From Desulforamulus hydrothermalis Lam5 = DSM 18033 (GTDB lineage: Bacteria; Bacillota; Desulfotomaculia; Desulfotomaculales; Desulfotomaculaceae), in NCBI RefSeq assembly GCF_000315365.1, contig NZ_CAOS01000003.1, forward strand, positions 62,001 to 126,000: 64,000 nucleotides of DNA. Reading direction: 5' to 3'. Positions 10,757 to 46,500 of this stretch are shown one piece after another. Position 1 is the stretch's first letter, and every line of letters begins with the position of its first letter. The position numbers were made by a program, and so were the translations under genes. Under the pieces are notes generated by a model. It had not been told where the DNA came from. It saw nothing but the letters and a program-made list of their open reading frames with translations, and did no database searches.

Positions 10757-11317
10757 TTAAAATATTCGAGATTCGGCAGGGTTTTCCTTTTCTAACAGTT
10801 TAATAATTCGATAGAATAACTGGGCAACAAGCTCTTCGTTTTGTTTAATATACTGACAGTTTTTTGTCATATGATCGGCCAGCAGCAGGGCCTGCTTTAC
10901 GGTTTTTAAGCTGCTGACCGAACCAATACTAAGCCCGTTTTTTAGCACGATCAGGGTTTTCTTGTCTTCTTGTGCTGCTTCCCTGACCTCTTGGATTGAC
11001 TGCAGGTGAATAAAACCATAGCAGGGGTCGCCTGCACAGCGGGCGGTACGTGTTTTTACGGCAGCCAGTGTGTAGCCAGGTGCCAATGACAGCGGCGGCA
11101 GGCCGACACCGCCCTGCCGGCGGAACATCTTGCGCAGGGCGGTATAATCCAGGGCAAAGTAGCGGCAAACCGCTTTCCGCACACTCCGCACATTCCTAAG
11201 GTCGTGGCCGATGTTTCCCTGCTCATACGCAATTTCTGTTCCGTCACCGTCCGGCAAGTAGACAGGTCGAAAATAAGCCAGCCGATCATAAGCTACCTGG
11301 CAGCGAGATACAGCCAT
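10757..11317 (-). CDS. ComK-like competence regulator (tentative)
   Basis: The 186-aa product (ATG at 11317, seven bases after AAAGGAAG; a start nine codons earlier has no binding site) has a central segment resembling Bacillus ComK. An aromatic Cys-Arg motif (VCRYFALDY; ComK has SCRFFGSSY) is followed by a GLPPLSL stretch (ComK KPPIMV), then a Cys-containing CYGFIHL (ComK CGWISHVHV), and a long helical C-terminus. ComK turns on DNA-uptake genes. Similarity is by eye only and weak outside these blocks. No competence genes lie nearby. It sits upstream of sucCD, about 30 bases away, on the same strand. Confidence 0.45.
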   Translation of the reverse strand: MAVSRCQVAYDRLAYFRPVYLPDGDGTEIAYEQGNIGHDLRNVRSVRKAVCRYFALDYTALRKMFRRQGGVGLPPLSLAPGYTLAAVKTRTARCAGDPCYGFIHLQSIQEVREAAQEDKKTLIVLKNGLSIGSVSSLKTVKQALLLADHMTKNCQYIKQNEELVAQLFYRIIKLLEKENPAESRIF

Positions 11318-11421
11318 ACAACATCTTCCTTTCTGTTTTTGCACCAGTATACAGGTGTTAGGTGAATTAACGGTGAAAAGCTAAGCTGCCAGGGTGAAAA
11401 TAAGGTGGCTGCCTGGTAAAA

Positions 11422-11502
11422 AAATAAAAGCCTCCGGCGTGTTGCAGTTGCCGTCTGGCTGACGTTGGCAACTGCAACGATTTGCGGAAGGCCTTTATTT
11501 TT
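11422..11502 (-). terminator. Long-stem terminator of the ATPase/OmpR-type operon
   Basis: An inner perfect 12-bp stem (GTTGCAGTTGCC at 11441-11452 with 11467-11478) sits inside an outer stem of AAATAAAAGCC and GGCCTTTATTT type. The outer arm contains the stop codon of the 244-aa gene. On the minus strand the structure is followed by TTTTTTACC. Confidence 0.8.
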
Positions 11503-12229
11503 GTATCTGCACGTTTGTCAGGTTAAGCCGGTAGCCATAATGCCGTTTGCTTTCAATATAGTGCTGGCGTTGACCGTCATCACCCAGTTTATGCCGCAAC
11601 AGTTTAATATGGGTCTTCACATCTCCCGGCACACCGTATACAGCATCCCCTCCCTGCACGGCAGTGTACAACGCATCCCTGGCCAGGAAACGGCCTGCTG
11701 CCCCGGCCAGCCGCATAACAAGACGCTTTTGGGCGGGAGTCAGGTCAAGATATTGATCACCCAGCCAGGCTTCCTCTTTGTTAAGGTAAACGGTTAAAAA
11801 GGGAATTTCCCTTTGCTTGCTCGAAACAGCAGCGTAAGATACAGTTCTTTCATGCAACTGAACCGGCCAGCGCTGCTTTTGCAAGCGGCTGAGCAACCCT
11901 TTTCCGGCAGCCGCCAACCGGGCATCCGGATGGTTGGCAAGGTTAATGCATAAAAGCAAAAGCCGGCTGCCGGGTGCTTCGGCAGCCGGCCATTGCCACT
12001 GTTGCAGCCAATCTAAAGCCTGCACCAAGATGTCCTCGGGAAACCGGTCCAGCCTTAGCAGGACTTCCTGTAAAGAGATCAGTCCCCCGCCGGCTTGAAA
12101 CAACATCGCTGCCCGACGTCGTTGCCAAGGATCCGGGTGTAACAGGAAGGGGACAACCGTCAGCCACTCATGTTTGCCGGGCAGGTTTCCTTGTCTTAGT
12201 TGTTTGTCCGGGAATTTTTTAATACTCAT
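11495..12229 (-). CDS. OmpR/PhoB-type winged-helix protein with helical N-terminus
   Basis: The 244-aa protein has a C-terminal OmpR-type DNA-binding domain (about 160-238: LTPAQKRLVMRL, VKTHIKLLRHKLGDD, YIESKRHYGYRL). This is the typical helix-turn-helix and wing hairpin. The N-terminal 150 residues are not a receiver domain: no phospho-acceptor Asp pattern is seen. They form Leu/Ala-rich helices resembling HEAT-like repeats. It is therefore an unusual DNA-binding protein with an unknown sensor half. Its ATG overlaps the end of the SMC-like ATPase gene by 11 bases, so the two are co-translated. A regulatory role linked to that ATPase is inferred. Confidence 0.8.
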   Translation of the reverse strand: MSIKKFPDKQLRQGNLPGKHEWLTVVPFLLHPDPWQRRRAAMLFQAGGGLISLQEVLLRLDRFPEDILVQALDWLQQWQWPAAEAPGSRLLLLCINLANHPDARLAAAGKGLLSRLQKQRWPVQLHERTVSYAAVSSKQREIPFLTVYLNKEEAWLGDQYLDLTPAQKRLVMRLAGAAGRFLARDALYTAVQGGDAVYGVPGDVKTHIKLLRHKLGDDGQRQHYIESKRHYGYRLNLTNVQIQK

Positions 12230-14084
12230 AGCGCACCAGCCTGCCTTTTAACGCCTCGGGCCCGCCCTCCAACAGCAGGTTCAGGGCATCTTTAACAGGT
12301 GGATGGCTGAGATCTCCCTGTAGGGCTACCCTGCCACGGCAGCCGTCTGCCGCCAGTACCAAATTGTTTTCTGCCTCACCGTTAACCGGAATATTGGGGT
12401 TGTGGGTGGCAAAAATCATTTGCCGTCCAGCCTTAACTTTTTTAAGAGCCGGCACCACTGTGTGAAAAATATAAGCATTATCTAAGTGATCTTCCGGCTG
12501 GTCAATGAGCAGCGGGCGGTAATCTTCCAGCAGCAGCAAAGGTAAAACTGCGGTACATTTCTGGCCTTTGGACAGTGTCTCCAGGGTTTTATATGCTGCC
12601 CCGTCCTGCAGCCGGATTTCTACCAAATCTTCCAGCCAGATATCCTCTAATGCCAATAAATCTGCCGGCGTCAGTTGGGCTGCCAAAAAACCCGCCAGCC
12701 GTTGCGCCCGGTCTTTATCTATACCGCAGCACTGTTCCAAATAGCGGTCATCCCGGTGCCGCAGGATTTCAGCCAGTTCCCCGGGAGATAGGCGGCAAAC
12801 GATTTGCTCTGTTAACCGGTTATAATGCATGCCTGATTTGCTGAGCGCCGCCGCCAAAAATTCCCGGTACTTGTCAGTATTGCCGGCCTGTCTCAAATTC
12901 ACCTGGATCTCCGGCTGCAGCAGATTATTATACTCCTGACAAACCCGCAACCTCTGTTCGTATAAATTGTACTGCAGTTGTTGTAAACGATGCTTTATTT
13001 GTTGCCGTTGTTCCAGCAAAACAGCCTGGGCTTGTTCTTTTTGCGCCAGCCGGTCCACTAACCTTTCCAGTTCTAACAGCAGGCCGGTCAGCCGGTTTCG
13101 TTCTTGCACTGCTTCCCCCAATCCCTTGACAGGCAGACCGGCCTGGATGCGATCATCCTCCCGTTCCTGGGCCCGGTGCCGCTCGGCCAAGCCAGCCATA
13201 AGATTGGCCAGCTGTTGAAGTAATTTTTCCTGCAGCACAACTGCTTGGCTGACCAATTGGCGTACCGCCGTTTCTGTTTCCCGGCTGATCTCAAGGGCCC
13301 GGGCCAGAATATCCTGGTTGGGGGCAGCGGTCTCGTCCCAAACCGGTTCCGGTTGAGATGCTGCCAGCCGCCTTTTGTCCTGCTGCAACTGCTGCTTCAC
13401 CGTTCGCATCAGTTGGTCAAAAAACATTCTTTCCCGTTCTCTGTGGCGCTGCCGCTGCAATAAGTGATCTAATTGATCTCCCGCCAGGGCCTGCAGGCGC
13501 TCTTTAATATCCGGCAGTATTGCCAGCCGCTCGGACAGCGCCTGACACTCCTCAATCAGGCCGCTTAATGCCGTTCGGTTTTCTGCCAGTTCATTCAGAC
13601 AGGTCCGGATTTCGTTTTTTATAAAAGGAAATGACGGGCATTTACCGTCAATGAGTGCTAATTGAGCGGCCGGCATTTCTGCCATGCTTTCCAGCTCACT
13701 CTGGCCCACTATTACCACGCCGAAATTTAAACCGCCGGCTAAATCCAGCGCCAAAGGGTTTCCCGCCCGGTCGCTGACCCGCGGGGCACGGTCGCCCAAT
13801 GACCGCTGGACAACATACTGCTGGCCGCCGGCAGTTTCCACTGTTAATCTTACTTTGCCGTTGCCCAAAATACCTGTCAGATGCTGCTCCAACTTCCTTC
13901 GGGCCGGCAGATCCGCCGGGTAGGCATCAAGGGCAAACCGGATTAATTCAATGATGCTGGTTTTACCGGCCCCCCGCCCCCCCACCAAACAGTTTAAATG
14001 GGGTCCAAAGGTAATTACCTGGCCGTCAAAAAAACCACCCAATACTCTTAACTCCAGAATCTTATGCCAATTTTGAACAACCAT
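12219..14084 (-). CDS. SMC/RecF-like coiled-coil ATPase
   Basis: The start is set at ATG 14084 (MVVQNWHK, 621 aa), directly after GGAGGGGGGAG; an earlier in-frame ATG at 14153 lies upstream of the promoter. Walker A is GGRGAGKT (35-42). A long central region rich in Gln, Leu, Arg and Glu forms coiled coil. The C-terminus has an ABC-like signature (LSKGQKCTA), Walker B LLIDQPEDHLDN and the THNPNIPV switch. This head type resembles the ATPases of TrlF and PrrC-like systems, which sense or act on nucleic acids, but no nuclease or HNH part is visible. DNA repair, stress response or phage defence are all possible. Confidence 0.85.
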   Translation of the reverse strand: MVVQNWHKILELRVLGGFFDGQVITFGPHLNCLVGGRGAGKTSIIELIRFALDAYPADLPARRKLEQHLTGILGNGKVRLTVETAGGQQYVVQRSLGDRAPRVSDRAGNPLALDLAGGLNFGVVIVGQSELESMAEMPAAQLALIDGKCPSFPFIKNEIRTCLNELAENRTALSGLIEECQALSERLAILPDIKERLQALAGDQLDHLLQRQRHRERERMFFDQLMRTVKQQLQQDKRRLAASQPEPVWDETAAPNQDILARALEISRETETAVRQLVSQAVVLQEKLLQQLANLMAGLAERHRAQEREDDRIQAGLPVKGLGEAVQERNRLTGLLLELERLVDRLAQKEQAQAVLLEQRQQIKHRLQQLQYNLYEQRLRVCQEYNNLLQPEIQVNLRQAGNTDKYREFLAAALSKSGMHYNRLTEQIVCRLSPGELAEILRHRDDRYLEQCCGIDKDRAQRLAGFLAAQLTPADLLALEDIWLEDLVEIRLQDGAAYKTLETLSKGQKCTAVLPLLLLEDYRPLLIDQPEDHLDNAYIFHTVVPALKKVKAGRQMIFATHNPNIPVNGEAENNLVLAADGCRGRVALQGDLSHPPVKDALNLLLEGGPEALKGRLVRYEY

Positions 14085-14121
14085 TACTCCCCCCTCCATT
14101 CCAGAACATATGTTTGATGGT

Positions 14122-14150
14122 ATTATAATCCAATTTTCAGGTATTGACAA
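14122..14150 (-). promoter_or_regulatory. Near-consensus sigma-A promoter of the ATPase/OmpR-type operon
   Basis: On the minus strand TTGTCA (14145-14150), a 17-base spacer and TATAAT (14122-14127) precede the ATPase start by about 38 bases. This is one of the best housekeeping promoters in the window. Confidence 0.85.
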
Positions 14151-14379
14151 CACTTATTTGCTTGACAAACAAACAAGGTTGCTAACCACCAGGGTCAGCA
14201 ACCTTGATCCGATCAAATGACCGGCAGACCGATTTGCTGTTTTATGACAACAGACGGGCTTCTAAGTAACCGCATAAATATTTTGGGCTGAATTGGAGAT
14301 AATACTAAAGCAGGTTGAAACGCTCAACCTAATCTCCTCTCCCTTTCACGCTGTATCTGACCCAGATACAGCTTTTTTC
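14151..14379 (+). other. Structured intergenic region, possible plus-strand small RNA
   Basis: Three stem-loops lie between trxB and the ATPase promoter. They are AAGGTTGCT paired with AGCAACCTT (14173-14203), a two-part hairpin GGAGAT/ATCTCC enclosing AGGTTGA/TCAACCT (14295-14337), and GCTGTATCTG/CAGATACAGC (14350-14372). No credible reading frame is present. I could not find a convincing plus-strand promoter, so a small RNA is only a possibility. The first hairpin may also act as a minus-strand terminator for trxB, since it is followed there by GTTTGTTTG. Confidence 0.4.
14350..14378 (+). terminator. Plus-strand intrinsic terminator facing trxB
   Basis: A perfect 10-bp stem (14350-14359 with 14363-14372), a three-base loop and six T (14373-14378) form a strong terminator in the plus direction. 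The T run abuts the trxB stop codon on the other strand. No plus-strand gene precedes it. Confidence 0.75.
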
Positions 14380-15439: not shown

Positions 15440-16924
15440 TTAGTCATTTTCTTTAAATTCTTTTTCCTTTAACAAGAGAGCTTTGGTTTCCCGGGCCGCC
15501 CGCAGCACTTGCGGTTCTTCTGACGGGTTGCTTAAAATCCGTTCCATATGTTTAAGGGCGCTGGGCATTTTTAACCTGCCCAGGGCCAGGGCGGCCTGCT
15601 CTCTTACCATGGCCACCGGGTCATCCAGAGCATTAATCAGGGAAAAGTAAAAAGATGGGTCAGCCATTTGGGCCATGGCCTGGCAGGTGCAAACTCGCAC
15701 CATACTGTCCCGATCCAGGATGGTTTTGCTCAACAGGTTAACGGCATCTTTGCCGCCCAGCCGGCCGCAGGCCCAAACTATCTGTAAAAAAACTTTTTTG
15801 GCTACCCGTCGCGGCAATGCCTTAAAACACAACACCACGGCAGGATCTCCCCGACGCACCAACTCACGGATGAGATGTACCGCTATTTCAGGATTTTTGC
15901 CTGTTAAAACAGCCGTACTGCGAGAAATTTTATCCCTGGCTTTGCTGCGCATGACAGACAGCACTTCATCTGCCAGGGCCGGCACCACCAGCGGGGCAAT
16001 CAGCCGGGCAGCCTGCTCTGACAGGCTCAACACACTGTCATGGCCGGCATCCTGGACAAGTAAATTACCGGCCAGCAAACACTCCAGCAGGGCAATGATT
16101 TGTTTCTTCGGCCAGCCCGCCAGCAAACCGTAGGCTACAGTTCGCGTGTAATAGTTCTCGCCGGCCAGCCAGGCGGTTTTGCTGCCCTTTAAAATATCAG
16201 CAAAACGGTGGAGATTAACCTGTTTTTCCACCTCAAATAAGCCTTCAAACAGCTTGATTAAACAATCCGGTTCCAGGGCCAAATCCATATCCATAATCAT
16301 TTGCTCGGCTTGCAGCCGTTCCAGGTAATTTTTAAACACCTTAAACCTGTTGCGAAAATCCGCCATAAACCGGATTAAGTGAATACCTGCCCCGGCCAGC
16401 TCCCGGTGGGAAAAAAGTTGTTCCTCGGTAGGACTGCCCAGGGACAGAACAACCTCCTCCAGTTTTAAATACTGTTTGCGAAACAAATCCAGGTAAACTT
16501 CCGGATAGCCTGTCTTTTGCATGATTTCAGGCAAACGGCAGCCGATGGTAAACAGGCGCATGATAATTTCCCAGGGCTGCCAGGGATGATTCTGGGCCGC
16601 CGGGCAGGCGCCCAGCACTTCCTTGGCGCAGGCCAGGATGTCTCCTGCCAATCCCTCCGCAAAAGAGGGGGGATAAGCAAACTGGGTATTCAGCTTGGCA
16701 GCCAAAATATCACGAAAGGTGGGGTTATCCAAAAAAGGCCAGTTTTTATTTAAACAAAAGATTAAATCAGGAATCACTGTATCCCGCAGGTACGCCACCG
16801 CCAGGGCGCTTTTGGGGCCACCCCACTCCTCGGTGAAAAGTTTTTCCAGGCGGCGGGCTAAATCTTCGGCACGGTTGGCCGGCCTGGCTTGTATTTTTAT
16901 ATCCATATCCTTCACATCCTGCAT
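15440..16924 (-). CDS. HEAT-repeat protein of unknown function
   Basis: A long, entirely helical soluble protein of about 494 aa. The last 130 residues show HEAT-repeat periodicity (DSMVRVCTCQAMAQMADP, then DPVAMVREQAALALGRLKMP), suggesting a curved protein-binding scaffold. The N-terminal 350 residues are Leu-rich with no recognised enzyme motif. Three ATGs compete for the start (16951, 16924, 16906); 16924 has GGAG at reasonable spacing, but the choice is uncertain. It lies between trxB and the germination operon on the same strand, with no clear functional link to either. Confidence 0.75.
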   Translation of the reverse strand: MQDVKDMDIKIQARPANRAEDLARRLEKLFTEEWGGPKSALAVAYLRDTVIPDLIFCLNKNWPFLDNPTFRDILAAKLNTQFAYPPSFAEGLAGDILACAKEVLGACPAAQNHPWQPWEIIMRLFTIGCRLPEIMQKTGYPEVYLDLFRKQYLKLEEVVLSLGSPTEEQLFSHRELAGAGIHLIRFMADFRNRFKVFKNYLERLQAEQMIMDMDLALEPDCLIKLFEGLFEVEKQVNLHRFADILKGSKTAWLAGENYYTRTVAYGLLAGWPKKQIIALLECLLAGNLLVQDAGHDSVLSLSEQAARLIAPLVVPALADEVLSVMRSKARDKISRSTAVLTGKNPEIAVHLIRELVRRGDPAVVLCFKALPRRVAKKVFLQIVWACGRLGGKDAVNLLSKTILDRDSMVRVCTCQAMAQMADPSFYFSLINALDDPVAMVREQAALALGRLKMPSALKHMERILSNPSEEPQVLRAARETKALLLKEKEFKEND

Positions 16925-17006
16925 GGTAACTCCAGGATACATATTCCACAAAACTTAAAATATATCCTGTTGCCGCTGCAGTAAATGGCTTAAAATTCTG
17001 CCCTGC

Positions 17007-34617: not shown

Positions 34618-36363
34618 CTACATAATTCCCAGTTGATGCATTTTGTAGTAAAGTGTGCTGCGCGGGATACCCAGCATGCGGGCTGCCTCAGAGCGATTGC
34701 CATTGACTTGTTTTAAAGTACGAATAATCAGCTCCCTTTCGGTTTGTTCAGTAACCGAAGCCAAACCAACCGTAGCGGTTGACTGGTCCTGGCGGGATCC
34801 CGTTTTTAAGGTTTCAGGGATAGCGCTCTCGGGAATGGTATCTCCTTCGGTCAAAATAACCATCCGCTCAATAACATTTTTTAATTGCCTTATATTGCCC
34901 GGCCAGGCATAAGCCAAAAATGTAGCCATCACGCCCGGTTCCAGTTTGTTGATTTGCTTTTGATACAGTTGGCTGAATTCCTGCAAGAACAGGTAAACCA
35001 ACTCCGGAATGTCCTCCCGTCGCTCTCTGAGGGGAGGTATTTCCAGGGCAACCACATTCAGACGATAATAAAGATCCTCCCTAAATTGACCGTTGGCCAT
35101 CATTTCTTCTAAAGAACGGTTGGTAGCAGCTATGATCCTGACATCCACCTTTACCGGTGTGGCACCCCCTACCCGGTAAAATACCCCGTCCTGCAGCACC
35201 CTTAATAATTTTACCTGCATATCCGGGGGCAGCTCACCAATTTCGTCCATAAACAGGGTACCGCCGTCTGCCAGCTCAAACACTCCCGGTTTCCCCTTTT
35301 TATCAGCACCCGTAAAGGCGCCGCTTTCATAGCCAAACATTTCGCTTTCAAATAAGCTAGGAGGGATAGCTGCACAGTTAATGACAGAGAATTTTTTATC
35401 CGACCTCGGGCTGGCCTCGTGGATCGCTTTCGCAAACAGTTCTTTACCGGTACCGCTTTCTCCCCGCAAAAGAATGACTGCATTGGTGGAAGCTGCTTTC
35501 CTGGCAATATTAATCAGCTCAATCAAGCGTTTATGATGGCCTTTGATGGCCGCAAAAGGATTTCTGCCGGCGGAAATTTTGTGAATTTCATTTTCCAAGC
35601 GTTTTACCTGGGTACTGGCCTGCGTTAACTTTTGATTTAATTGGACAATTTCCGTTATATCCCTTTCAGCGGTCACCCCGCCGATTACCTTGGGACCCAA
35701 ACGCACGGGAGTGGCATTAATCAATACATGGGTGCCTTCCACCGGTTGGTGATGAAGTGCCCTTATTTCCTCCCATTCTTTATTCACCCGGGTTACTACC
35801 AGGTTGGAAAAAAATTGGTTAATAGGCTTTCCCACAATATCCTGAGCTTTAATGCCGTACAACTCTTCCGCCCGGCTGTTCCAGATAACCACCCTGTCAA
35901 AATTGTCTACAATGCAGACTGCTTCTTCAACCGTTTCAACCACTGCATTAATACGTGCCTCAGTTTCGCAAACCCGCAGCGCCAGGTCATGAAAAACCTG
36001 GTCATAGGATAAAACACCCAGCACTTCTCCCTGCCTGTTCCTGCAAACCAAAGCATGATAACGCAACTCCGGCAGAAAGGCCAGAATCTCTCTCTCCAGA
36101 TCCTCTTCATCCAGGGAAGAAAAATCCCTTTTCATTACCTGTCTTACCTTAACATCAGACTCCAACCGCCGGTTAATGGCATCCTTCCAAAGCAACACCC
36201 CCACCAGCTTGTCCTCTTCGACAACCAGCACCACAGGACGATTGGGGATTCCTTTTTCCCTCACTTCGCCAATGGTAGTATCTGGAGTAACAGGCAGCAG
36301 GTCTTTATACAGCATATCTTTTACGGTTAAAAATCCTTTGTGCAATATAATCACCCCAGTCAT
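34618..36363 (-). CDS. Sigma-54-dependent activator with CBS and PAS domains (PrdR-like), no. 1
   Basis: The 581-aa regulator has two N-terminal CBS domains (about 12-125), a PAS domain (about 135-250), an AAA+ sigma-54 interaction domain (Walker [15 protein letters not shown] loop, [10 protein letters not shown]) and a Fis-type helix-turn-helix ([20 protein letters not shown]). CBS-PAS-AAA-HTH is the layout I recall for PrdR, the proline-responsive activator of clostridia. The GAFTGA loop is intact, so it should work with RpoN. It ends about 230 bases before the sigma-54 promoter of the dehydrogenase-AOR operon, its most likely target. The ligand may be an amino acid or nucleotide. Confidence 0.9.
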
Positions 36364-36557
36364 TTAAGAAGTGAGAGATAAAACAACAAAAACAGCCGGT
36401 CTGCCTGCTATAGTTTTAGCCTTGCCGTCAGTTTGGCAGCAAACTTGTCAGAGTTTATATCAACTTTACCGGTAGGTTTCTGATCCCTTCTGCTAAGGTT
36501 TCCGCACCGGCGGCACGCTGATTTCGCTACGGTCGTCATGGGCCTTGATATTATTTA

Positions 36558-37265
36558 TTATTCTCCTAAATAAGCCTTGCGCACTTCAGGATTATTGGCT
36601 AATTCCTTTGCCGAACCGGCCAGCACCAGTTCCCCTGTTTCCAGTACATAAGCCCTGTGCGCAATAGATAAAGCCATATGGGCATTTTGTTCCACCAATA
36701 AGATGGTGGTGCCGTTTTGGTTAATCTCTTGTATAATTGAAAAAATTTCCTGTACCAGCATCGGTGCCAGCCCCATGGAAGGTTCGTCCATCAGCAGTAG
36801 GGTAGGCCTGGACATTAAAGCCCGTCCCATAGCCAGCATTTGCTGCTCTCCCCCTGAGAGGGTTCCGGCCAACTGTGCTTTGCGTTCCGCCAAGCGGGGA
36901 AAACGTTGAAAAACCCTTTCTATATCTGATTTAATATTGGCCCTGTCCTTGCGGCTGTAAGCCCCCATTTCCAGGTTTTCTAAAACAGTCATTCTGGTAA
37001 AAACCCGGCGCCCCTCCGGCACCTGGCAAATACCAAGACTGACAATTTGGTGCGGCGGTAATTTGGTGATGGGTTGCCCCCGGTAAATAATACTCCCGGC
37101 TTGCGGGCGGATTAACCCGGAAACGGTGCGCAGGGTGGTGGTTTTGCCGGCGCCGTTTGCTCCGATTAAAGCAACAATTTCTCCTTCGGCTACCTGGCAG
37201 GAAATGCCCTTCAGCGCCCTGATAGCCCCATAAGAAACATGCAGGTCTTTAACTTCAAGCAGCAT
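36558..37265 (-). CDS. livF: Branched-chain amino-acid-type ABC transporter ATPase LivF, system 1
   Basis: The 235-aa ATPase has Walker A GANGAGKTT, signature LSGGEQQ, Walker B LLLMDEPSMGLAP and the switch His in VEQNAHMAL. LivF-type ATPases pair with LivG to drive HAAT-family uptake of branched-chain or other amino acids. It is the last gene of livKHMGF system 1, three bases after livG. It is closely similar to the second LivF at 43107-43811, pointing to an old duplication of the whole cassette. Confidence 0.93.
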   Translation of the reverse strand: MLLEVKDLHVSYGAIRALKGISCQVAEGEIVALIGANGAGKTTTLRTVSGLIRPQAGSIIYRGQPITKLPPHQIVSLGICQVPEGRRVFTRMTVLENLEMGAYSRKDRANIKSDIERVFQRFPRLAERKAQLAGTLSGGEQQMLAMGRALMSRPTLLLMDEPSMGLAPMLVQEIFSIIQEINQNGTTILLVEQNAHMALSIAHRAYVLETGELVLAGSAKELANNPEVRKAYLGE

Positions 37266-37268
37266 GGG

Positions 37269-38039
37269 CTAAACCACTTCCTTTCCCAAATAGGCGGCAA
37301 TTACCGCCGGGTTCCGCTGGATTTCTGCCGGGGAACCTGACGCTATTTTTCTGCCATAATCTAAAACTGCTATGCGATCAGATAAACTCATAACAAATTT
37401 CATGTCATGTTCCACTAAAAATATGGTAAGGCCCATGGCCTGGATTTTTCTAATCATACTCATAAGGGTTTGCTTTTCCTGCGGGTTCATGCCGGCAGCC
37501 GGTTCGTCCAATAACAACAGTTTCGGGCGACTGGCCAACGCCCGGGCTATTTCCAACCGGCGCTGTTCGCCGTAGGGCAGGTTCATAGCCAATTCATCTG
37601 CTTTGTGTTCAAGTTCCATCAACTTCAAAGCCTCAAGAGAATTTTCCGTAATAGCTCTCTCCTCTGCCAGCACTGCCGGAGTACGCAGCAGAGCTCCCAG
37701 AAATCCGGCCCCGGTTCTGCAGTGCATACCGATTTTCACATTGTCAAGTACGGTCATTTCACCAAACAGCCGAATATTTTGGAACGTTCTGGCAATACCC
37801 AGTTTGGTAATTACATGAGGTTTCAATCCGTTAATTTTACTGCCCATAAACCGAATTTCTCCGGCGGTAGGAGCATAAATACCGGTAATGAGGTTAAATA
37901 TGGTACTTTTGCCCGCCCCGTTGGGCCCGATTAACGCCCTTACGGTGCCTTCTTCAATTTTCATATCAACACTGTCTACCGCGGTGAGGCCGCCGAATCG
38001 GATGGATACGTTGTCCAGTTCCAAAATAGTCTTTGACAT
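37269..38039 (-). CDS. livG: ABC transporter ATPase LivG, system 1
   Basis: The 256-aa ATPase has Walker A GPNGAGKST, the LivG-specific GIARTFQNIRLF segment, signature LPYGEQRRLEIARAL, Walker B LLLDEPAAGMNPQE and VEHDMKFVM. ATG 38039 follows GGAGTG; the longest frame extends 39 codons into livM without a binding site. Inner-membrane associated on the cytoplasmic side, paired with LivF. Confidence 0.93.
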   Translation of the reverse strand: MSKTILELDNVSIRFGGLTAVDSVDMKIEEGTVRALIGPNGAGKSTIFNLITGIYAPTAGEIRFMGSKINGLKPHVITKLGIARTFQNIRLFGEMTVLDNVKIGMHCRTGAGFLGALLRTPAVLAEERAITENSLEALKLMELEHKADELAMNLPYGEQRRLEIARALASRPKLLLLDEPAAGMNPQEKQTLMSMIRKIQAMGLTIFLVEHDMKFVMSLSDRIAVLDYGRKIASGSPAEIQRNPAVIAAYLGKEVV

Positions 38040-38052
38040 TGTCTTCACTCCT

Positions 38053-38952
38053 TTAGTTAGCCCCGCCGGAGGCAGATGTGCCGGTTTGTTGTATGCTTTT
38101 ACGGGCAAACAGACGCCGTAATTGCACGCCGCCCAGCAAGCCCCTGGGCCGTACAATCATCATAAAAACCATTAACAAACCATAAACCATCATCCGGTAA
38201 TCCGAAATAAATCTTAAAAACTCCGGTGCCAAGGTTAGGACACCGGTACCCAGAATTACCCCGGGAATACTGCCCAAGCCGCCTAATACAATGAAGGTTA
38301 AAAACTCAAAGGATTTAATAAAACCAAAATCCGATGGATTTAAGTATTGAATCAGATGGGCATACAAAGCACCGCTGATGCCCGCCAAAAAAGTGCCGAT
38401 GGCAAAGGCGGCAATCTTAGTGGAAGTAAGGTTGACTCCCATGGCTTCCGCAGCTATCTCATCTTCCCTAATAGCCGCCAAAGAGCGGCCAAAGCGGGAG
38501 TTCTCCAGACGAAACATAGCCCAAACAGTAATGATAACCAGTAGCAATACCACTGTCAGTGTGGTATGGCGGGGAATGCCTGCCAGTCCCAAAGCACCGC
38601 CGGTAATGGTCATGTTTAAGAAAACAACCCGCACTATTTCACCAAATCCCAGGGTAGCAATGCCCAGGTAGTCGCCGGTTAAACGCAGGGTAGGATAGCC
38701 CAGAAGAACTCCCCACAGCCCGGCCATCAAGCCGCCTGCCAAAACAGCCAACCCGAAGGGCAAATGAAGTTTGAGACTTAATATGGCTGATGTGTACGCT
38801 CCAATGCTTAGAAAAGCTGCATGACCAAAGGAGAGTTGTCCGGTGACACCGGTAATCAAGTTAAGTCCCAACGCACCGATCAGATAAATACCCAACATTG
38901 TCAGCACTTGAATGTAATAGTCATTTAAAAACATGCTAAAAATGCTATCCAT
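38053..38952 (-). CDS. livM: ABC transporter permease LivM, system 1
   Basis: The 299-aa permease has about eight to ten membrane helices. It shows the family segments GQLSFGHAAFLSIGAY, TLGFGEIVRVVF, the coupling-helix region around REDEIAAEAMGVN, and VLGGLGSIPGVILG. It pairs with LivH to form the membrane channel. The basic C-terminus (VQLRRLFARK) is cytoplasmic. It is 13 bases upstream of livG and 10 bases downstream of livH. Confidence 0.92.
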   Translation of the reverse strand: MDSIFSMFLNDYYIQVLTMLGIYLIGALGLNLITGVTGQLSFGHAAFLSIGAYTSAILSLKLHLPFGLAVLAGGLMAGLWGVLLGYPTLRLTGDYLGIATLGFGEIVRVVFLNMTITGGALGLAGIPRHTTLTVVLLLVIITVWAMFRLENSRFGRSLAAIREDEIAAEAMGVNLTSTKIAAFAIGTFLAGISGALYAHLIQYLNPSDFGFIKSFEFLTFIVLGGLGSIPGVILGTGVLTLAPEFLRFISDYRMMVYGLLMVFMMIVRPRGLLGGVQLRRLFARKSIQQTGTSASGGAN

Positions 38953-38962
38953 GACAACCTAC

Positions 38963-39835
38963 CTACACTTTCCTCTGGATTGGTCGCCCCAGTAAGCCGG
39001 TGGGCCGGAACAGCAACACAATAATCAGTAAGGTAAAGGCAATGGCATCCTTGTACAGGTCAAATCCACCGGCTATGCCAAGGGTTTCGGCTACCCCCAG
39101 AAACAACCCGCCCAGCATGGCGCCGGGTATGCTGCCAATCCCGCCCAGGACGGCAGCGCAAAAGGCTTTGAGGCCGGCTAAAACACCCATAAAAGGAGAT
39201 ACCGAGTTAAAATAAATGCCTACCAGCACGCCACCTGCAGCGGCCAGGGCCGAACCGATAGCGAAAGTAAAGGATATCACCTGGTTTACGTTAATCCCCA
39301 TCAGGGCTGCCGTATCATAATCTTCCGAGGCAGCCCGCATGGCTTTGCCGATTTTTACATATTTAACAACAAAATGAAGGCCTGCCATCAACAGACTGGC
39401 AACAATTAAAATAATAACTTGGACTTTGCTGATTTCCACCGGCCCCAATTTATACAAGGCATCGTTAATTACAGGGGGAAAGGCAACCGGCTGGGGACCT
39501 TTAATTTTCGTCATCAGGGTTTGTAAAAAAATAGATACACCAATGGCAGAAATCAAGGGAGCTAAACGAGTGGACCGGCGCAGCGGGCGGTAAGCAATAC
39601 GCTCAATGGTAACGCCCATAATCATGCAGGCGGCCATGGCAGCCAGCAGCGAAACCACCAATCCCTGTTGGAATACGGAAACCATTAAAACCCCGACGAA
39701 GGCTCCTACCATATATATTTCTCCATGGGCAAAGTTAATTAATTGTATGATACCGTAAACCATGGTATAGCCCAGGGCAATAAGAGCGTAAGTTGCGCCC
39801 AGTGTAATACCGTTTAATATTTGCTGCGACAGCAT
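38963..39835 (-). CDS. livH: ABC transporter permease LivH, system 1
   Basis: The 290-aa permease opens LNGITLGATYALIALGYTMVYG, the hallmark LivH start, and carries INFAHGEIYMVGA and LGGIGSIPGAMLGG. About eight membrane helices are visible. It follows the binding-protein gene livK after a stable stem-loop that probably lets the binding protein be made in excess. ATG follows a GGAAGGAG site. Confidence 0.92.
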   Translation of the reverse strand: MLSQQILNGITLGATYALIALGYTMVYGIIQLINFAHGEIYMVGAFVGVLMVSVFQQGLVVSLLAAMAACMIMGVTIERIAYRPLRRSTRLAPLISAIGVSIFLQTLMTKIKGPQPVAFPPVINDALYKLGPVEISKVQVIILIVASLLMAGLHFVVKYVKIGKAMRAASEDYDTAALMGINVNQVISFTFAIGSALAAAGGVLVGIYFNSVSPFMGVLAGLKAFCAAVLGGIGSIPGAMLGGLFLGVAETLGIAGGFDLYKDAIAFTLLIIVLLFRPTGLLGRPIQRKV

Positions 39836-39870
39836 GTCCTCATCTCCTTCCTACGGGGTGTTTAAACAGT

Positions 39871-39906
39871 GGTTGCAGCCATTACAGAATACGAATGGCT
39901 GCAACC
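39871..39906 (-). other. Intercistronic stem-loop between livK and livH, system 1
   Basis: GGTTGCAGCCATT (39871-39883) pairs perfectly with AATGGCTGCAACC (39894-39906), a 13-bp stem with a 10-base loop. The minus strand has no T run, so mRNA stabilisation or partial attenuation is more likely than full termination. The second liv operon has a hairpin in the same place. Confidence 0.7.
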
Positions 39907-39933
39907 TTTTAATCTTAATTTTTTATTTCCGGT

Positions 39934-41127
39934 TTACTTAACATCCACCGTTTCTTTTACAACAAACTTACCGCCTTTAACTTCCAGCAGGTAGACAGGA
40001 CTCTTGATAGGTTCCCGGTTTTCCCGGAAGGTAATGGTACCGGATACGCCGGTCCAGTCTTTGGTCTTAGCCAGTTCAGCGCGGAATTGTTCAGGATTGT
40101 CACTGCCGGCAGCCTTAATGGCATCCGCAATCAGCATGACGGCGTCATAACCTTGAGCAGAGAACATATCGGGCAGGGCACCGTTGTTGCCTGCTTTATA
40201 AGCCTCGATAAACTTCTTGGTTTTTTCGCCTGCTTTTTCTTCGTCCGCAGCAAAACCACAGTATACCATGCTGCCTTCCACTGCGTCGCCGCCCATCTTC
40301 ATCAGCACGTCAGACAGCAGGCCGTCGCCGCCTACCATAACAGCTTTCATACCTTGTTTTCTGGCTTCCTTCATAAACAGGCCGCCCTCAGTGTAGTAAC
40401 CGGTGAAAATAATGCCATCCGGGTTTTTATCTTTTATAGCGGTAACCTGGGCAGCAAAGTTTTGATCGCCGTCCTGGATGCTCTGTTCCGCAACAATTTC
40501 CATCTTGTTGGCAGCCAATGCTTCTTTAAAGAGTTTGGTTAAGCCAACGCTGTAGTCATTATTCATGGAAGTGATAACCGCTACTTTCTTCCAACCCAGC
40601 TTTTCATTGAGGTATTTGGTAACAGCCGGGGCAGCCACGGCATCCAGCAGGGTATCGCGGAAAATGTAGTCACCGATTTCCACGACACCGGTGCCTACAG
40701 CACCGGCGGACAGCAGCACAACTTTATTTTGCTGAGCAATGGGAGCGGCTGCCTTGGTAATACCGGTGGTGGGATCGCCCACAATGGCTACAACCTTGTC
40801 ACGGGTAATCAGTTTCTGGGTTACGTTGGTACCCTCAGAAACCTTGCTGCCATGGTCTTCTTCAATAATTTCAATTTTCTTGCCAAGTAAACCGCCGGCG
40901 TCATTAATGTCCTTGGCGGCCATTTGCATTCCTTTGAGGGTTTCTACGCCGTAAGCAGCATGCCCGCCGGTTTTGGCGCCCAGGAAACCAATCTTAATGG
41001 TATCCCCGCCGGAAGCGGCTTTTTCCCCTTCTGCCGCCTTTTTCTCCTGGCTGCCGCCACAGCCCGCCAGGATCAGGGCAGTCACTGCCAACAGCACTAA
41101 CAGCTTCCATACATTACTTTTTTTCAT
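39934..41127 (-). CDS. livK: ABC transporter substrate-binding lipoprotein LivK, system 1
   Basis: This 397-aa lipoprotein has a signal peptide with lipobox ILAGC (Cys23) and a type I periplasmic-binding fold (IKIGFLGAKTGGHAAYG, AAKDINDAGGLLGKKI, VGDPTTGIT). It is tethered outside the membrane and delivers an amino acid or similar ligand to LivHM. Ligand specificity cannot be read from sequence; context with amine dehydrogenase and hydroxyproline-type genes suggests other than leucine. The first gene of liv system 1; ATG follows GAAGGAGG. No terminator separates it from the sigma-54 activator upstream, so the two may be co-transcribed. Confidence 0.93.
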   Translation of the reverse strand: MKKSNVWKLLVLLAVTALILAGCGGSQEKKAAEGEKAASGGDTIKIGFLGAKTGGHAAYGVETLKGMQMAAKDINDAGGLLGKKIEIIEEDHGSKVSEGTNVTQKLITRDKVVAIVGDPTTGITKAAAPIAQQNKVVLLSAGAVGTGVVEIGDYIFRDTLLDAVAAPAVTKYLNEKLGWKKVAVITSMNNDYSVGLTKLFKEALAANKMEIVAEQSIQDGDQNFAAQVTAIKDKNPDGIIFTGYYTEGGLFMKEARKQGMKAVMVGGDGLLSDVLMKMGGDAVEGSMVYCGFAADEEKAGEKTKKFIEAYKAGNNGALPDMFSAQGYDAVMLIADAIKAAGSDNPEQFRAELAKTKDWTGVSGTITFRENREPIKSPVYLLEVKGGKFVVKETVDVK

Positions 41128-41216
41128 CTCTCTAATCTGCCTCCTTCTTTATTATTTAATTATTACAGATTAAGCTAATTAATTAATAAATGAACTCACC
41201 TCCCGTATGCTTGATG

Positions 41217-42965
41217 TTATCCTTTAGCAGGAATACCCAGTTGACGCAGTTTATAATATAAAGTGCTTCTGGGAATACCCAGCACCCTGGCCGCCTCCGA
41301 GCGGTTGCCCCTGACTTGCTGCAAAGTTTTAAGGATCAGTTGTTTTTCAGCTTCGACGGCCACATTCATCAGTTTACCTTGGGCAACCGGACTTGTCACC
41401 AGAGATATATAAGTATTGCGGCGCAGGTTTTCCGGCAATGCCTGTTCGTCAATGACATCACCGTCGGTGAGCACGACCAGTCGTTCGACGGCATTCTTTA
41501 ACTCCCGCACATTACCGGGCCAGGTATAATCTAAAAAGGAACTCATCACCGCCGGTTCGATTTTTTTAATGGATTTGTCGTATTTGCGGCAGAATTCCTG
41601 CATAAACAGGTGCACCAGCTCAGGTATATCTTCCTTTCTTTCGCGCAACGGGGGAATTTCCAAGGAAACAACATTCAGCCGGTAATACAGATCTTCTCTG
41701 AACTGGCGGCGGTTGATCATCGCCTCCAGGTCCCGGTGGGTGGCTGCCAGCACCCTTACGTTAACCTGCACCGGTTGCGCTCCGCCCACCCGGTAAAAAA
41801 CACCTTCTTGCAGTACCCGCAGCAATTTGGCCTGCATTTCTACAGACATTTCACCTACTTCATCCAAAAACAGCGTGCCCCCGTTAGCCAGTTCAAACAT
41901 GCCGGGCTTACCTTTCCGGTCTGCTCCGGTGAACGCCCCTCCCTCGTAACCAAAAAGTTCGCTTTCAAACAGGTTATTGGGAATGGCACCGCAATTAACT
42001 ACAATAAAAGGATTCATGTGGCGGGAGCTGTTTTGGTGAATGGCACGGGCCATCAATTCCTTGCCGGTGCCGCTTTCTCCCCTTAGCAAAACGGTTGCGT
42101 CCGTTGTACTGATTTTTTTACCAAAGGCAATCAGGTTTTGCATAACCTGACTGCGTCCAATCAGCTTGCGAAAAGCACAATCCTGTCCGGAAATCTTACG
42201 GATTTCCTGTTCCAGCAATTTCACCTGGGAACTGGCTTTGGTTAATTCCTGGTTCAGCTGTACCAGTTCCGTAATATCTTTTTCCACTGCCAGGCCGCCG
42301 ATTACTTTATCCTGCCACTGCACCGGCGCTGCATTAATCAGGACATGGGTTCCTTCGCAGGGTTGATGGTAGTGGCCCTTAAGCTCTTTCTTTTCGTGCA
42401 TGCAATTGCTGATACGCAAGTTAGTGAAAAAATCTTCAATGCGGGCAGACAAAATTTTCTCTGCCTTAACCCCGTAAAGTTCTTCAGCTTTAGGGTTCCA
42501 CACCACCACCCGGTGCTGTTTGTCAATGCCGCAAATGCTTTCATTAACCTGGCATAAAAGGGTTTCGAAATAACTTAGCACCCTGACCAACTCTTTTTGC
42601 AGGGCATTGGCTGCCTGCAGGGGATCAAGCATACCTGCCGGTCGATTGTGACTGTCTTTGATGACAGGTATTGCTGTAGGATTTTTTATCCATTGTTTAA
42701 ACAGTTCATCAATGGTCAGCTGTTCGTTAATGAATAAAGCCGGTCGCCGTGCTACCGTGTGCAAAGCAGCATTTTCCGCCGCAAAGATTAAATCGCAAGC
42801 TAAAATAACCATGTGCCGGTCTTTGACACGCAATAACAAACCGCCCAAAAGGCCTGATTGCAGCAATCTCTGTCCTTCCTTTACAGAGATTGACTCATCA
42901 ACTTCCTGGACAGGCAGATTGTGCAAATCACAGGCTTTTGGGTTAAATTCATGGTACCTCCCCAT
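41217..42965 (-). CDS. Sigma-54-dependent activator with N-terminal sensor and PAS domains (PrdR-like), no. 2
   Basis: The 582-aa paralogue of the activator at 34618-36363. The N-terminal 125 residues look like diverged CBS domains. A PAS domain (about 135-250), an AAA+ domain with [14 protein letters not shown] and FLDEVGEMS, and a Fis-type helix-turn-helix ([20 protein letters not shown]) follow. The two proteins are strikingly similar from the PAS domain onward but different at the N-terminus, so they probably sense different ligands. It lies between the two liv operons, directly upstream of livK system 1. I found no -24/-12 site in the 89 bases before livK. Confidence 0.88.
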
Positions 42966-43066
42966 AGCCTCTCACATCCAGGTTACATTTTTTTCTTACG
43001 TTACCTTAAGAAAATTAATTCCACAGTACTGCAAAAATTCCTGCATCTGTTTGAATCTTTTTATGA

Positions 43067-43103
43067 ACATGTGTCAAGTTGTGTGCAAGCAATTGACACA
43101 TGT
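43067..43103. repeat. Perfect 11-bp inverted repeat between the second activator and liv system 2
   Basis: ACATGTGTCAA (43067-43077) and TTGACACATGT (43093-43103) are separated by 15 bases. It begins four bases after the livF stop (minus strand) and about 100 bases before the activator start. It has no T run. It could be an operator or activator site for the regulator gene, or an mRNA-end hairpin. Confidence 0.6.
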
Positions 43104-43106
43104 CAT

Positions 43107-43811
43107 CTAGCCGCCTAAATATGCTTTTTTGACTTCGGGTGATTCCAGCAGTTCCCTGGCATCTCCCGCCAGGACAATTCGCCCGGTTTCAACCACATAG
43201 CCCCGGTGGGCAATAGACAAGGCCATTTTGGCATTTTGTTCCACCAGCAAGATGGTAGTACCCTGCTCATTTAATTCTTTGATAATGGAAAAAATTTCTT
43301 TTACCAAAATAGGCGATAAGCCCATAGAAGGCTCATCCAATAACAGCAGGCGTGGCTTGGACATCAAAGCACGCCCCATGGCCAGCATTTGCTGCTCGCC
43401 GCCGGATAAACTGCCTGCCAGCTGGTTTTTCCTTTCGCGCAGCCGGGGAAATCTGTTGTACACATGTTCCATGGATTCAGCCACTTCGCTTTTGTTTTTA
43501 TTCAAAAAGGCACCCAGCTCAAGATTTTCGTATACGGGCATATTGGCAAAAATTCTGCGCCCTTCCGGCACTTGGGTCAACCCCATTTTAACTATTTCCG
43601 GTGTCGCCAAGCCGGTAATATCTTTGCCTTCAAAAACAACCCGGCCGCTTTTGGGTTTGAGCAAACCACATATGGTATTCAAGGTGGAGGTTTTGCCGGC
43701 GCCGTTTGCGCCAATCAGAGTAACGATCTGCCCCTGGGGAACCTCCAAAGAAATGCCTTTAAGGGCATGGATGGCACCGTAATATACATGAACGTCTTCC
43801 ACTTTCAGCAT
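43107..43811 (-). CDS. livF: ABC transporter ATPase LivF, system 2
   Basis: The 234-aa ATPase has Walker A GANGAGKTS, signature LSGGEQQ, Walker B LLLLDEPSMGLSP and VEQNAKMAL. It is the closing gene of livKHMGF system 2, its ATG abutting the livG stop. Many blocks are identical to LivF of system 1 (VPEGRR, LSGGEQQMLAMGRALMS), supporting duplication. Confidence 0.93.
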   Translation of the reverse strand: MLKVEDVHVYYGAIHALKGISLEVPQGQIVTLIGANGAGKTSTLNTICGLLKPKSGRVVFEGKDITGLATPEIVKMGLTQVPEGRRIFANMPVYENLELGAFLNKNKSEVAESMEHVYNRFPRLRERKNQLAGSLSGGEQQMLAMGRALMSKPRLLLLDEPSMGLSPILVKEIFSIIKELNEQGTTILLVEQNAKMALSIAHRGYVVETGRIVLAGDARELLESPEVKKAYLGG

Positions 43812-44579
43812 TTAGGAGGCCTCCTCTCCCAGATAAGCTTCAATTACCCGCCGGTTGTTGCGAATCTCCTCCGGTGTGCCGATGGCAATAATTTGGCCGT
43901 AATCCAGCACGTAGATTATCTCGCAAACTCCCATCACCAGCGACATATCATGCTCAATCAGCAGGATGGTTAAATCAAATTGTTGCCTGATCCAGCGGAT
44001 CAATTCCATTAATTCGTGGGTTTCCTGCGGATTCATGCCTGCGGCCGGTTCGTCCAACAACAACAGGCGGGGCTGGGTAGCCATCGCCCGAGCTATTTCC
44101 AACCGCCGCTGCTCACCATAGGGCAAGTTTTTAGCCAGTTCGTTATATTTATGTTCCAGTTTAAAAATCTTTAAAAGTTCCATGGATTTTTCATGTATTT
44201 CTTTTTCCCCGGCATAAAAACCCGGCAGCCGGCAGATTGCCCCCACCAGCCCGTATTTGGCGTGGCGGTGATAGGCAATCTTTAAATTGTCTATTACCGT
44301 CAGGTCATTAAACAGGCGTATGTTTTGAAAGGTCCGGGCTATGCCTCGATGGTTAATTTGGTATGGTTTTAAACCCACCAGGCTCTTGCCGTCCAGTTTT
44401 ATATCACCGGAGGTAGGCAAATACACACCCGTCAACATGTTGAACACAGTTGTTTTACCTGCCCCGTTAGGACCGATCAAGCCCGCCAGAGCATTTTTGG
44501 GAAGTTGCATGTTAAAATTGGAAACAGCCTTTAAACCCCCGAAAGATATGGACAGGTCATTGACTGACAGCAGTGCCAT
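43812..44579 (-). CDS. livG: ABC transporter ATPase LivG, system 2
   Basis: The 255-aa ATPase carries GPNGAGKTT, GIARTFQNIRLF, LPYGEQRRLEIARAM, LLLDEPAAGMNPQE and IEHDMSLVM. It overlaps livM by 23 bases, which implies coupled translation. Compared with the system 1 copy, the order and length are the same. Cytoplasmic side of the membrane, working with LivF. Confidence 0.93.
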   Translation of the reverse strand: MALLSVNDLSISFGGLKAVSNFNMQLPKNALAGLIGPNGAGKTTVFNMLTGVYLPTSGDIKLDGKSLVGLKPYQINHRGIARTFQNIRLFNDLTVIDNLKIAYHRHAKYGLVGAICRLPGFYAGEKEIHEKSMELLKIFKLEHKYNELAKNLPYGEQRRLEIARAMATQPRLLLLDEPAAGMNPQETHELMELIRWIRQQFDLTILLIEHDMSLVMGVCEIIYVLDYGQIIAIGTPEEIRNNRRVIEAYLGEEAS

Positions 44580-45540
44580 GTTGTTTTTCCTCCTTATCTT
44601 TCGATTTTTTACGGAATAAGCGCAGGCTGAATTCCTTGGTTCCCATCAGGCCCTGGGGCCGGAACAGCATGATGATAATCAGCAGCAGCGCATATATAAC
44701 CAAACGCAGTTCGGCAAATTTTTGCAAAGAAGCAGAGATAATGGTCAGCACAATGGCTGCTATAATCGAACCGGTTATACTGCCCTGTCCCCCCAATACC
44801 ACCATAACTAAAATATCAAAGGATTTTAGAAAGTTAAAGGTGTTTGGTTGAATGGTATAAAAATAATGGGCATGCAAACCGCCGGCCAGACCGGCAAACA
44901 GCGAACCGATGGTAAAGGCCATTACCTTATACTTGGTTGTATGAATGCCCATGGCCTCGGCGGCAATTTCGTTTTCTCGGATAGATATAGTGGCTCTGCC
45001 GTGCGTAGAATTGACAAAGTTCCAAATGACCAGCACTGTCAACACGGTTAACCAAAAAACCCAGGTCCAGTTGGCTAATTTGGGGATGCCGGAAAGGCCA
45101 TAGGCACCACCGATATAATCAATATTAACAATAAGGCCCCGAATGATTTCACCAAAACCCAGGGTGGCAATGGCCAGGTAATCACCACGCAGGCGCAGGG
45201 TAGGCAGACCTACCAGAACACCGCAAAGGGCAGCCAGCAACGCCCCCACCAGCAGGGCAATGATAAAAGGCAAGTGGGCCTTAAGGGTAATCATGGCAGC
45301 TCCGTAGGCACCCACGGCCATGAAGCCGGCGTGCCCGATGGAAAATTGTCCGTTAAAGCCGTTAATTAAGTTCAGGCTTACGGCCAATATTACGTTAATG
45401 CCGATTAAGATAAGGTTTAACTCATAGTAAGGATTAAGAATGCCGCCTTTAATCAGAAAATCGACCGCACCCCAAACAGCAATCAAAATTAATAAAATAC
45501 CTATCTGCTTGCCGATTTTACGCTCGTACATTGACATCAC
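44557..45540 (-). CDS. livM: ABC transporter permease LivM, system 2
   Basis: The 327-aa permease has about ten membrane helices with GQFSIGHAGFMAVGAY, TLGFGEIIRGLI, IRENEIAAEAMGI and VLGGQGSITGSII. The start is ambiguous: GTG 45540, ATG 45537 or ATG 45531 are all possible next to AGGTGA overlapping the livH stop; 45531 has the best spacing. The basic C-terminal tail (LFRKKSKDKEEK) is cytoplasmic. Confidence 0.92.
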   Translation of the reverse strand: MMSMYERKIGKQIGILLILIAVWGAVDFLIKGGILNPYYELNLILIGINVILAVSLNLINGFNGQFSIGHAGFMAVGAYGAAMITLKAHLPFIIALLVGALLAALCGVLVGLPTLRLRGDYLAIATLGFGEIIRGLIVNIDYIGGAYGLSGIPKLANWTWVFWLTVLTVLVIWNFVNSTHGRATISIRENEIAAEAMGIHTTKYKVMAFTIGSLFAGLAGGLHAHYFYTIQPNTFNFLKSFDILVMVVLGGQGSITGSIIAAIVLTIISASLQKFAELRLVIYALLLIIIMLFRPQGLMGTKEFSLRLFRKKSKDKEEKQHGTAVSQ

Positions 45541-46431
45541 CTACACTTTCTCCCGGACATTCTTACCAAACAAGCCGGCCGGTTTGACAATCAAAATAAT
45601 GATCAGGATGATAAAGGCCACCGGGTCACGGTAAAGGGATTTACCATAACCGCTTACCATCGCCTCCACAATTCCCAACAAGAAACCACCGGTCATTGCT
45701 CCGGGGATGATGCCAATGCCCCCCAGTACGGCCGCTACAAAGGCCTTCAAGCCGGGCATAATACCCATCAAAGGATTAATGGCGTTATAATAAATTCCCA
45801 CCAGCACGCCTGCCGCCGCCGCCAGGGCGGAGCCAATGGCAAAGGTTGCTGAAATGGTCTTATTAACATTGATACCCATTAATTGAGCTGTTTGTTTATC
45901 ATGGGAAACAGCCCGCATTGCCTTACCGATTTTTGTTTTATGCACAATGTACTGCAGCAGTACCATTAATGCAACAGTAACCACCAGAATAATGATTTGG
46001 CGGTTGGTAATAACCAAATCACCGAAAAGTTTGTATTGCACTTCGGGCAAAACCTGAGGAAAGGTCCGTACTTGGGGCGTTACCATCAACATCATACCGT
46101 ATTCCAGAAACAGTGAAACACCAATGGCGGTAATCAATGCGGCAATCCTCGGGGCGTTGCGCAATGGAGTGTAAGCCAGTTTCTCAATGACCATGCCCAG
46201 GATAGCGCAAACCACCATAGCTAACAGCAGAGCCGGTACAAAGGACCAGCCCAGAACGGCTGTGGCAAAAAAACCCAGATAGGCACCCACCATATAAATA
46301 TCGCCGTGGGCAAAGTTAATTAATTGGACAATACCGTAAACCATTGTATATCCCAGGGCTATCAGCGCGTAGATGCTGCCCAGTGAAATACCGTTAATCA
46401 GTTGTTGTAAAAAAACTTCCAAAGATGCCAC
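45541..46431 (-). CDS. livH: ABC transporter permease LivH, system 2
   Basis: The 296-aa permease has INGISLGSIYALIALGYTMVYG near the N-terminus, INFAHGDIYMVGAYLG and LGGIGIIPGAMTGG. The first codon is GTG 46431, or TTG 46422 (MEVFLQQL), which has GGGGTGG five bases upstream. It forms the channel with LivM. It follows livK after a strong stem-loop. Confidence 0.92.
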   Translation of the reverse strand: MASLEVFLQQLINGISLGSIYALIALGYTMVYGIVQLINFAHGDIYMVGAYLGFFATAVLGWSFVPALLLAMVVCAILGMVIEKLAYTPLRNAPRIAALITAIGVSLFLEYGMMLMVTPQVRTFPQVLPEVQYKLFGDLVITNRQIIILVVTVALMVLLQYIVHKTKIGKAMRAVSHDKQTAQLMGINVNKTISATFAIGSALAAAAGVLVGIYYNAINPLMGIMPGLKAFVAAVLGGIGIIPGAMTGGFLLGIVEAMVSGYGKSLYRDPVAFIILIIILIVKPAGLFGKNVREKV

Positions 46432-46453
46432 CCCAATTCGTTGTTTTGCAGAC

Positions 46454-46477: not shown

Positions 46478-46500
46478 ATAGAATGATCAGCCCGGTGATT

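Follow-up and report, generated by a model that had tools for sequence, protein, structure and literature searches.

Organization of the locus

The window analysed here is a stretch of 64,000 nucleotides from Desulforamulus hydrothermalis Lam5, the genome of which comprises 2.69 Mb in 16 contigs. Two overlapping genes on its minus strand encode an ATPase of 621 amino acids and a putative regulator of 244 amino acids. The ATPase gene runs from an ATG at 14084, preceded by the Shine–Dalgarno sequence ggaggggg, to its last codon at 12222, and the regulator gene from an ATG at 12229 to its last codon at 11498. Together with the flanking elements, the features are as follows.

14122–14150, minus strand: sigma-A-type promoter of the ATPase–regulator operon (TTGTCA-17-TATAAT, 11 of 12 matches)
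14104–14115, minus strand: predicted LexA (SOS) box AAACATATGTTC, just 3' of the operon −10
12222–14084, minus strand: SMC/Rad50-like ATPase gene (NF045780 match, AF2 model, SMC/Rad50 head matches)
11498–12229, minus strand: regulator gene (Trans_reg_C match, Foldseek, HEAT link via orthologues)
11422–11505, no strand assigned: long inverted repeat with A/T tails 3' of the regulator gene, a bidirectional-looking terminator (opposite-strand self-match and sequence)
11361–11420, minus strand: candidate operator of five YACC repeats, TTTACC/GCCACC/TTCACC/TTCACC/TTCACC, with spacing 11-11-21-11
11346–11351, minus strand: TATACT, the likely −10 of the ComK-like gene, with the last repeat 9 nt before it (read from the sequence)
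10760–11317, minus strand: ComK-like gene, 186 amino acids, ATG at 11317 (hhalign against PF06338 relatives)

A reading made from the sequence alone had described an isolated unit with a strong promoter, an overlapping gene pair and a very long terminator. These elements are present: the promoter lies at 14150–14122 and the same scan gives a match in six of the seven pair-bearing genomes, the two genes have 11 nt in common (stop codon included), and the inverted repeat at 11422–11505 shows up as an 89-nt match of this region to its reverse complement. The description as isolated holds for the pair as a transcription unit of its own, and not for its setting, as the neighbourhood is conserved and the promoter carries a LexA box.

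The ATPase matches the NCBIfam model for TrlF (NF045780) at profile positions 297–943 of 944 with an E-value of 1.6e-78. The score of 265.4 bits falls below the equivalog cut-off of 350 bits because the N-terminal PHP phosphoesterase domain is missing; 10 residues precede the start of the match. The C-terminal SMC-like ATPase part of TrlF is present and, judged by its sequence, the protein corresponds to the ATPase half of TrlF and lacks the PHP nuclease. The Walker A (GGRGAGKT), signature (LSKGQ), Walker B (LLIDQPED) and H-loop (ATHN) motifs are conserved, and the head is split in two by a coiled coil. The ATPase thus has the features of SMC/Rad50-type ABC ATPases: Walker A, LSxGQ, Walker B, H-loop and a coiled coil inside the head. 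An AF2 model (pLDDT 86.6) matched the heads of SMC, Rad50 and RecF with Z up to 20.6, and Foldseek also returned MukB, JetC and RecN. The SMC-like ATPase with a TrlF-type head that the sequence-only reading had proposed is thereby confirmed, though in a form lacking PHP and scoring below the cut-off.

With TrlF and Ppl (NF042955), the window ATPase shares the split head around a coiled coil and the DQPED form of Walker B, and with TrlF it is homologous across nearly its whole length. The pair differs from both in the lack of a PHP phosphoesterase, in having ATPase and output on separate proteins, in the LexA box of its promoter and in having a DNA-binding protein as output. The head fold and coiled coil are shared with SMC, Rad50, RecN and RecF, but the sequence is nearest to TrlF and no Mre11, kleisin or RecR gene adjoins the ATPase gene. 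Two observations were made among related loci. The ATPase at the end of a ‘Pirellulales’ MAG contig (L055) is 92% identical to that of the window, and this contig is probably a mis-binned Desulforamulus contig. At L069 (2844–4085) and L073 (7888–9132), a 415-residue Schlafen/AlbA-like protein, recognized by eye, directly follows a PHP-bearing TrlF.

The C-terminal 75 residues of the regulator form an OmpR/PhoB-type winged helix (Trans_reg_C, residues 160–235, E 2.4e-12, 47.2 bits with a cut-off of 26.2). Its Foldseek matches are the DNA-binding domains of RstA, BaeR and PmrA, and the recognition-helix region is conserved. A Response_reg receiver was not detected in the regulator at E ≤ 1. The N-terminal half is helical, with low confidence in the structure model, and the corresponding helices are HEAT-like in the orthologues of the Desulforadius family. 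Profile match, missing receiver and structure model agree with the earlier description of a winged-helix protein in which a helical part replaces the receiver. OmpR/PhoB response regulators have in common with this protein the winged-helix DNA-binding domain and, as candidate sites, direct repeats with an 11 bp period beside the −10; they differ in that the window regulator has a helical domain, HEAT-like in orthologues, instead of a receiver with its phospho-acceptor.

Conservation of the pair and its relatives

We surveyed 113 genomes of the order Desulfotomaculales. A PHP-less ATPase occurs in seven of them, which belong to two families (G000, G053, G055, G056, G037, G038 and G039), and the regulator gene lies directly 3' of the ATPase gene in all seven. 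In G038, a MAG, the contig ends inside the regulator gene and the pair is split across contigs. The remaining ATPase matches in the order are mostly TrlF with PHP, or fragments. The gene order is GerABC – HEAT protein – TrxB – pair – ComK-like – SucC – SucD with some insertions; SucCD is absent from the G056 locus. In G051 and G058, the pair is precisely absent between TrxB and the ComK-like gene, and a chemoreceptor-like gene on the opposite strand occupies its place. In G054, SucC directly follows TrxB. G057 retains a remnant (L048, 8783–9322), in which a natural internal deletion has fused the ATPase start in frame to the winged helix; transposase-like genes are nearby. The number of independent losses is about two (G051 and G058 look like sisters, and G057 keeps its remnant).

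Adjacency in seven genomes together with the joint absences indicates that the two genes are passed on together and lost together from a core location. Its conservation in other genomes rules out chance, and co-inheritance of ATPase and regulator is well supported. The sequence-only reading had called for a search for co-occurrence and would have been given up if the pair were not conserved together or the ATPase were an ordinary repair protein; neither was found, the genes being adjacent wherever the PHP-less ATPase occurs in the order and jointly lost elsewhere. Upstream of trxB, a HEAT-repeat-like protein of about 490 amino acids (15440–16951, minus strand, without an NCBIfam match) is encoded throughout the conserved neighbourhood.

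PHP-less ATPases, mostly of 610–660 amino acids, are also carried by 22 of 80 loci from genome contigs, with representatives outside the order in Pseudomonadota, Actinomycetota and Chloroflexota. After the ATPase, all 22 encode a protein that combines an N-terminal helical repeat with a conserved HE box and HATPase_c; nearly all also encode a receiver protein bearing a TCAD9/APH-like domain further on, as revealed by Pfam analysis of examples. We refer to these as kinase-type loci (L057–L063, L065–L067, L070–L072, L075, L076, L079, L080, L086, L089, L091, L097 and L126). When a profile of the kinase HEAT region was run on a set made up of 1142 ORFs and the regulator proteins, the kinases came first, followed by the regulators of G037 (E 9.5e-5), G039 (0.004) and G038 (0.043); every unrelated ORF ranked lower. 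The orthologues of G037 and G039 are significant; the window regulator is too diverged to obtain a score, and the HEAT link to the kinase partners is therefore indirect, via the orthologues.

A quick maximum-likelihood tree calculated from 85 ATPases unites the regulator-type clade (99) with the kinase-type clade (100) at 98. L056 groups with the joined clades and still has PHP; its ATPase forms an operon with an AAA-OmpR winged-helix protein. The ATPases of the kinase-type operons thus form the sister clade of the window ATPase, and their partner, encoded by the next gene downstream, starts with a HEAT domain related to the N-terminal region of the regulators of G037 and G039. These operons differ in their output, a histidine kinase plus a response regulator with a kinase-like domain, in the absence of an excess of GAACN4GTTC boxes, and in the location of some copies near type I restriction-modification genes, a methylase, an integrase, a relaxase or resolvases. 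Because some copies adjoin restriction-modification genes and integrases, phage defence is plausible for this sister branch in other phyla. A description of either the ATPase–regulator pair or the kinase version was not found in the open-access literature on TrlF, Ppl-type PHP ATPases, TCAD9 and SMC-kinase combinations.

A LexA box upstream and a ComK-like gene downstream

In all seven genomes, the ATPase gene is preceded by a palindrome that departs from GAACN4GTTC, the LexA box of Bacillus subtilis, at no more than one position. Most of these palindromes have the form (A/G)AACATATGTT(C/T) and follow immediately after the −10, so that the box overlaps the promoter region. Across the window's genome, five sites match RAACATATGTTY exactly, compared with one for the reversed-pattern control. 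Apart from the ATPase operon, the sites precede recA, recG, dinB and a DNA-repair radical-SAM gene (identities by NCBIfam). In D. putei, the motif is again found at recA, recG, the radical-SAM gene and the ATPase operon (identities by similarity). A box in common with these genes argues that the pair is a member of the SOS regulon, a prediction that we consider well supported. Operators including GAGAACAAATGTTTGT have served for SPR work on the LexA of Clostridium difficile (PMC4234289). Two GAACN4GTTC-type boxes are present at the sister locus L056. As a general feature of TrlF-type ATPases, LexA boxes were rejected, their frequency at kinase-type (3/22) and PHP-type (3/31) loci being near expectation.

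Direct identification of the next gene 3' of the pair by Pfam failed, as the ComK model PF06338 alone gave no match at E ≤ 10 in the window's genome, but comparison of profiles succeeded: hhalign of the gene against ComK (PF06338) relatives yielded a probability of 99.0 and an E-value of 8.6e-18 over 135 columns. On the strength of this comparison, the gene is a divergent ComK. It belongs to the same superfamily as Bacillus ComK, from which it differs in being too divergent for the Pfam model and in the OmpR-type repeat array of its promoter. An alternative start codon (GTG, 11344) is situated 5' of the point at which the transcript likely starts. ComK-like genes also occur in Desulfotomaculales genomes without the pair. 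ComEC is encoded in all ten genomes compared, and DNA uptake is therefore possible.

The candidate operator reaches 20/20 on a best-4-of-5 score, and the arrays of the seven pair-bearing genomes 18–20/20, values obtained with 0 of 500 shuffles in each case; the scoring scheme was fixed after the arrays had been seen, and these shuffle counts are therefore descriptive. Among 223 upstream regions, the seven arrays occupy the top seven places. The spacing is 11-11-21-11 in G000 and G053, 11-11-20-11 in G055, and 11-11-11 or 11-12-11 in the other family; the arrays of G055 and, more so, G056 are degenerate. Where the pair is lost or broken, the score drops to 15.5 (G051), 15 (G058) and 16 (G057) of 20. 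As the promoters of G051 and G058 can be aligned with that of G053, the array was lost by mutation of the sites. Control architectures with a period of 10 or 12 were usually, not always, at background.

For a strict three-repeat pattern, the ComK-like promoter was the sole exact match among the matches listed for the window's genome, while a loose version with one mismatch allowed produces too many chance matches to define a regulon. Binding to direct repeats of about 11 bp is established for OmpR/PhoB proteins, and the ComK-like gene is the likely target of the regulator as judged from these sites. Autoregulation via such repeats was discarded, since the ATPase promoter has no array. A second intergenic array with an 11 bp period was noticed in G038 (L213, about 1501–1560), ahead of a cassette which we take to be DUF1659/DUF2922/YvrJ-like. 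The cassette was rejected as a second target, the array being confined to G038 and not found at related cassettes elsewhere.

A proposed damage-responsive switch and its alternatives

The sequence-only reading had considered DNA-damage sensing, phage defence and transcription control as possible roles. The LexA box in the promoter and the candidate target repeats, which decay with loss of the pair, favour the first and the last in combination. We propose, with a probability only just above one-half (about 0.52), an SOS-induced, ATPase-gated transcription switch which turns on the ComK-like regulator. LexA would repress the ATPase–regulator operon, and its inactivation upon DNA damage would allow both proteins to be made. 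The Rad50/SMC-type head with its coiled coil, to go by fold and family, would bind DNA or DNA ends and cycle ATP. Most likely, the state of the ATPase would then be passed via the helical domain to the DNA-binding domain of the regulator, in place of receiver phosphorylation. We infer this gating through the helical domain because, in relatives, the ATPase is fused to a PHP nuclease or has a HEAT-headed kinase and its response regulator as partners. The regulator would bind the 11-bp-period repeats beside the −10 of the ComK-like gene and activate it, and the ComK-like protein might switch on further genes, speculatively for DNA uptake or recombination.

If this is true, a transcription factor would be under the control of an SMC-like ATPase, and damage would be relayed to ComK. 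We found no description of such a mode of signalling, and bacteria of this group are not known to use ComK. In a wider sense, the SMC/Rad50-like ATPase may serve as a transcription-factor sensor, an ATP-driven analogue of two-component signalling that senses DNA structure and has HEAT as the common plug, connecting SOS to a ComK-type regulator here and acting on a histidine kinase plus response regulator in other phyla. This generalization is tentative and does not reach an even chance. The proposed switch would also explain the split among TrlF-type ATPases as one sensor type with three outputs (nuclease, kinase and DNA-binding protein).

The LexA box common to recA and recG, the dominance of SMC, Rad50 and RecF folds among the structure matches and the co-inheritance of both genes would suit an SOS-induced repair machine, in which the ATPase acts on broken DNA like RecN/Rad50, with the winged-helix protein as its structural partner rather than as a transcription factor. 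Winged-helix subunits do serve as structural partners of SMC heads. However, the regulator has an OmpR-type DNA-binding winged helix whose recognition-helix region is conserved, not one of the kleisin/ScpB type, and the direct-repeat array at the neighbouring gene decays with the pair. We thus regard a repair machine as unlikely. A point against the proposed switch is nevertheless that the ATPase may have its function in repair, the regulator being no more than expressed along with it.

The ComK-like repeats might also be read by another OmpR-type regulator, the targets of the pair lying elsewhere. Many such regulators are encoded in these genomes and the second array of G038 precedes an unrelated DUF1659-like cassette, but the arrays track the pair over ten genomes, including the decay at the alignable G051/G058 promoter, and regulator and target are adjacent, which makes a different reader rather improbable.

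A phage-defence or abortive-infection module with a TrlF-type sensor, in which the winged helix would regulate its own operon or some other effector, is hardly probable for this branch: TrlF/Ppl relatives are annotated as anti-phage and sister histidine-kinase systems adjoin restriction-modification genes, integrases and resolvases in some genomes, but the pair has no nuclease, in two families it sits in a fixed core neighbourhood and not in a defence island, its own promoter lacks a YACC array, and PADLOC gave no match for the regulator and matched the ATPase only as a relative. From the labels of PADLOC, Pfam and NCBIfam alone, no system could be named.

Two further observations concern other parts of the window. 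A likely conserved small RNA is located at 14305–14379 on the plus strand, convergent to trxB. It has a C-rich, anti-Shine–Dalgarno-like core (AATCTCCTCTCCCTTT) and a terminator (GCTGTATC..GATACAGC plus a T run), and gave no Rfam match at gathering. The core is found exactly in 46 of the 113 genomes of the order, as a single copy in all but one, and 19 of 20 sites examined adjoin trxB. At 34618–47727 on the minus strand, two near-duplicate clusters for branched-chain amino acid ABC transporters were seen, each with a gene for a sigma-54-type activator beside it (assigned by eye from the ORF list).
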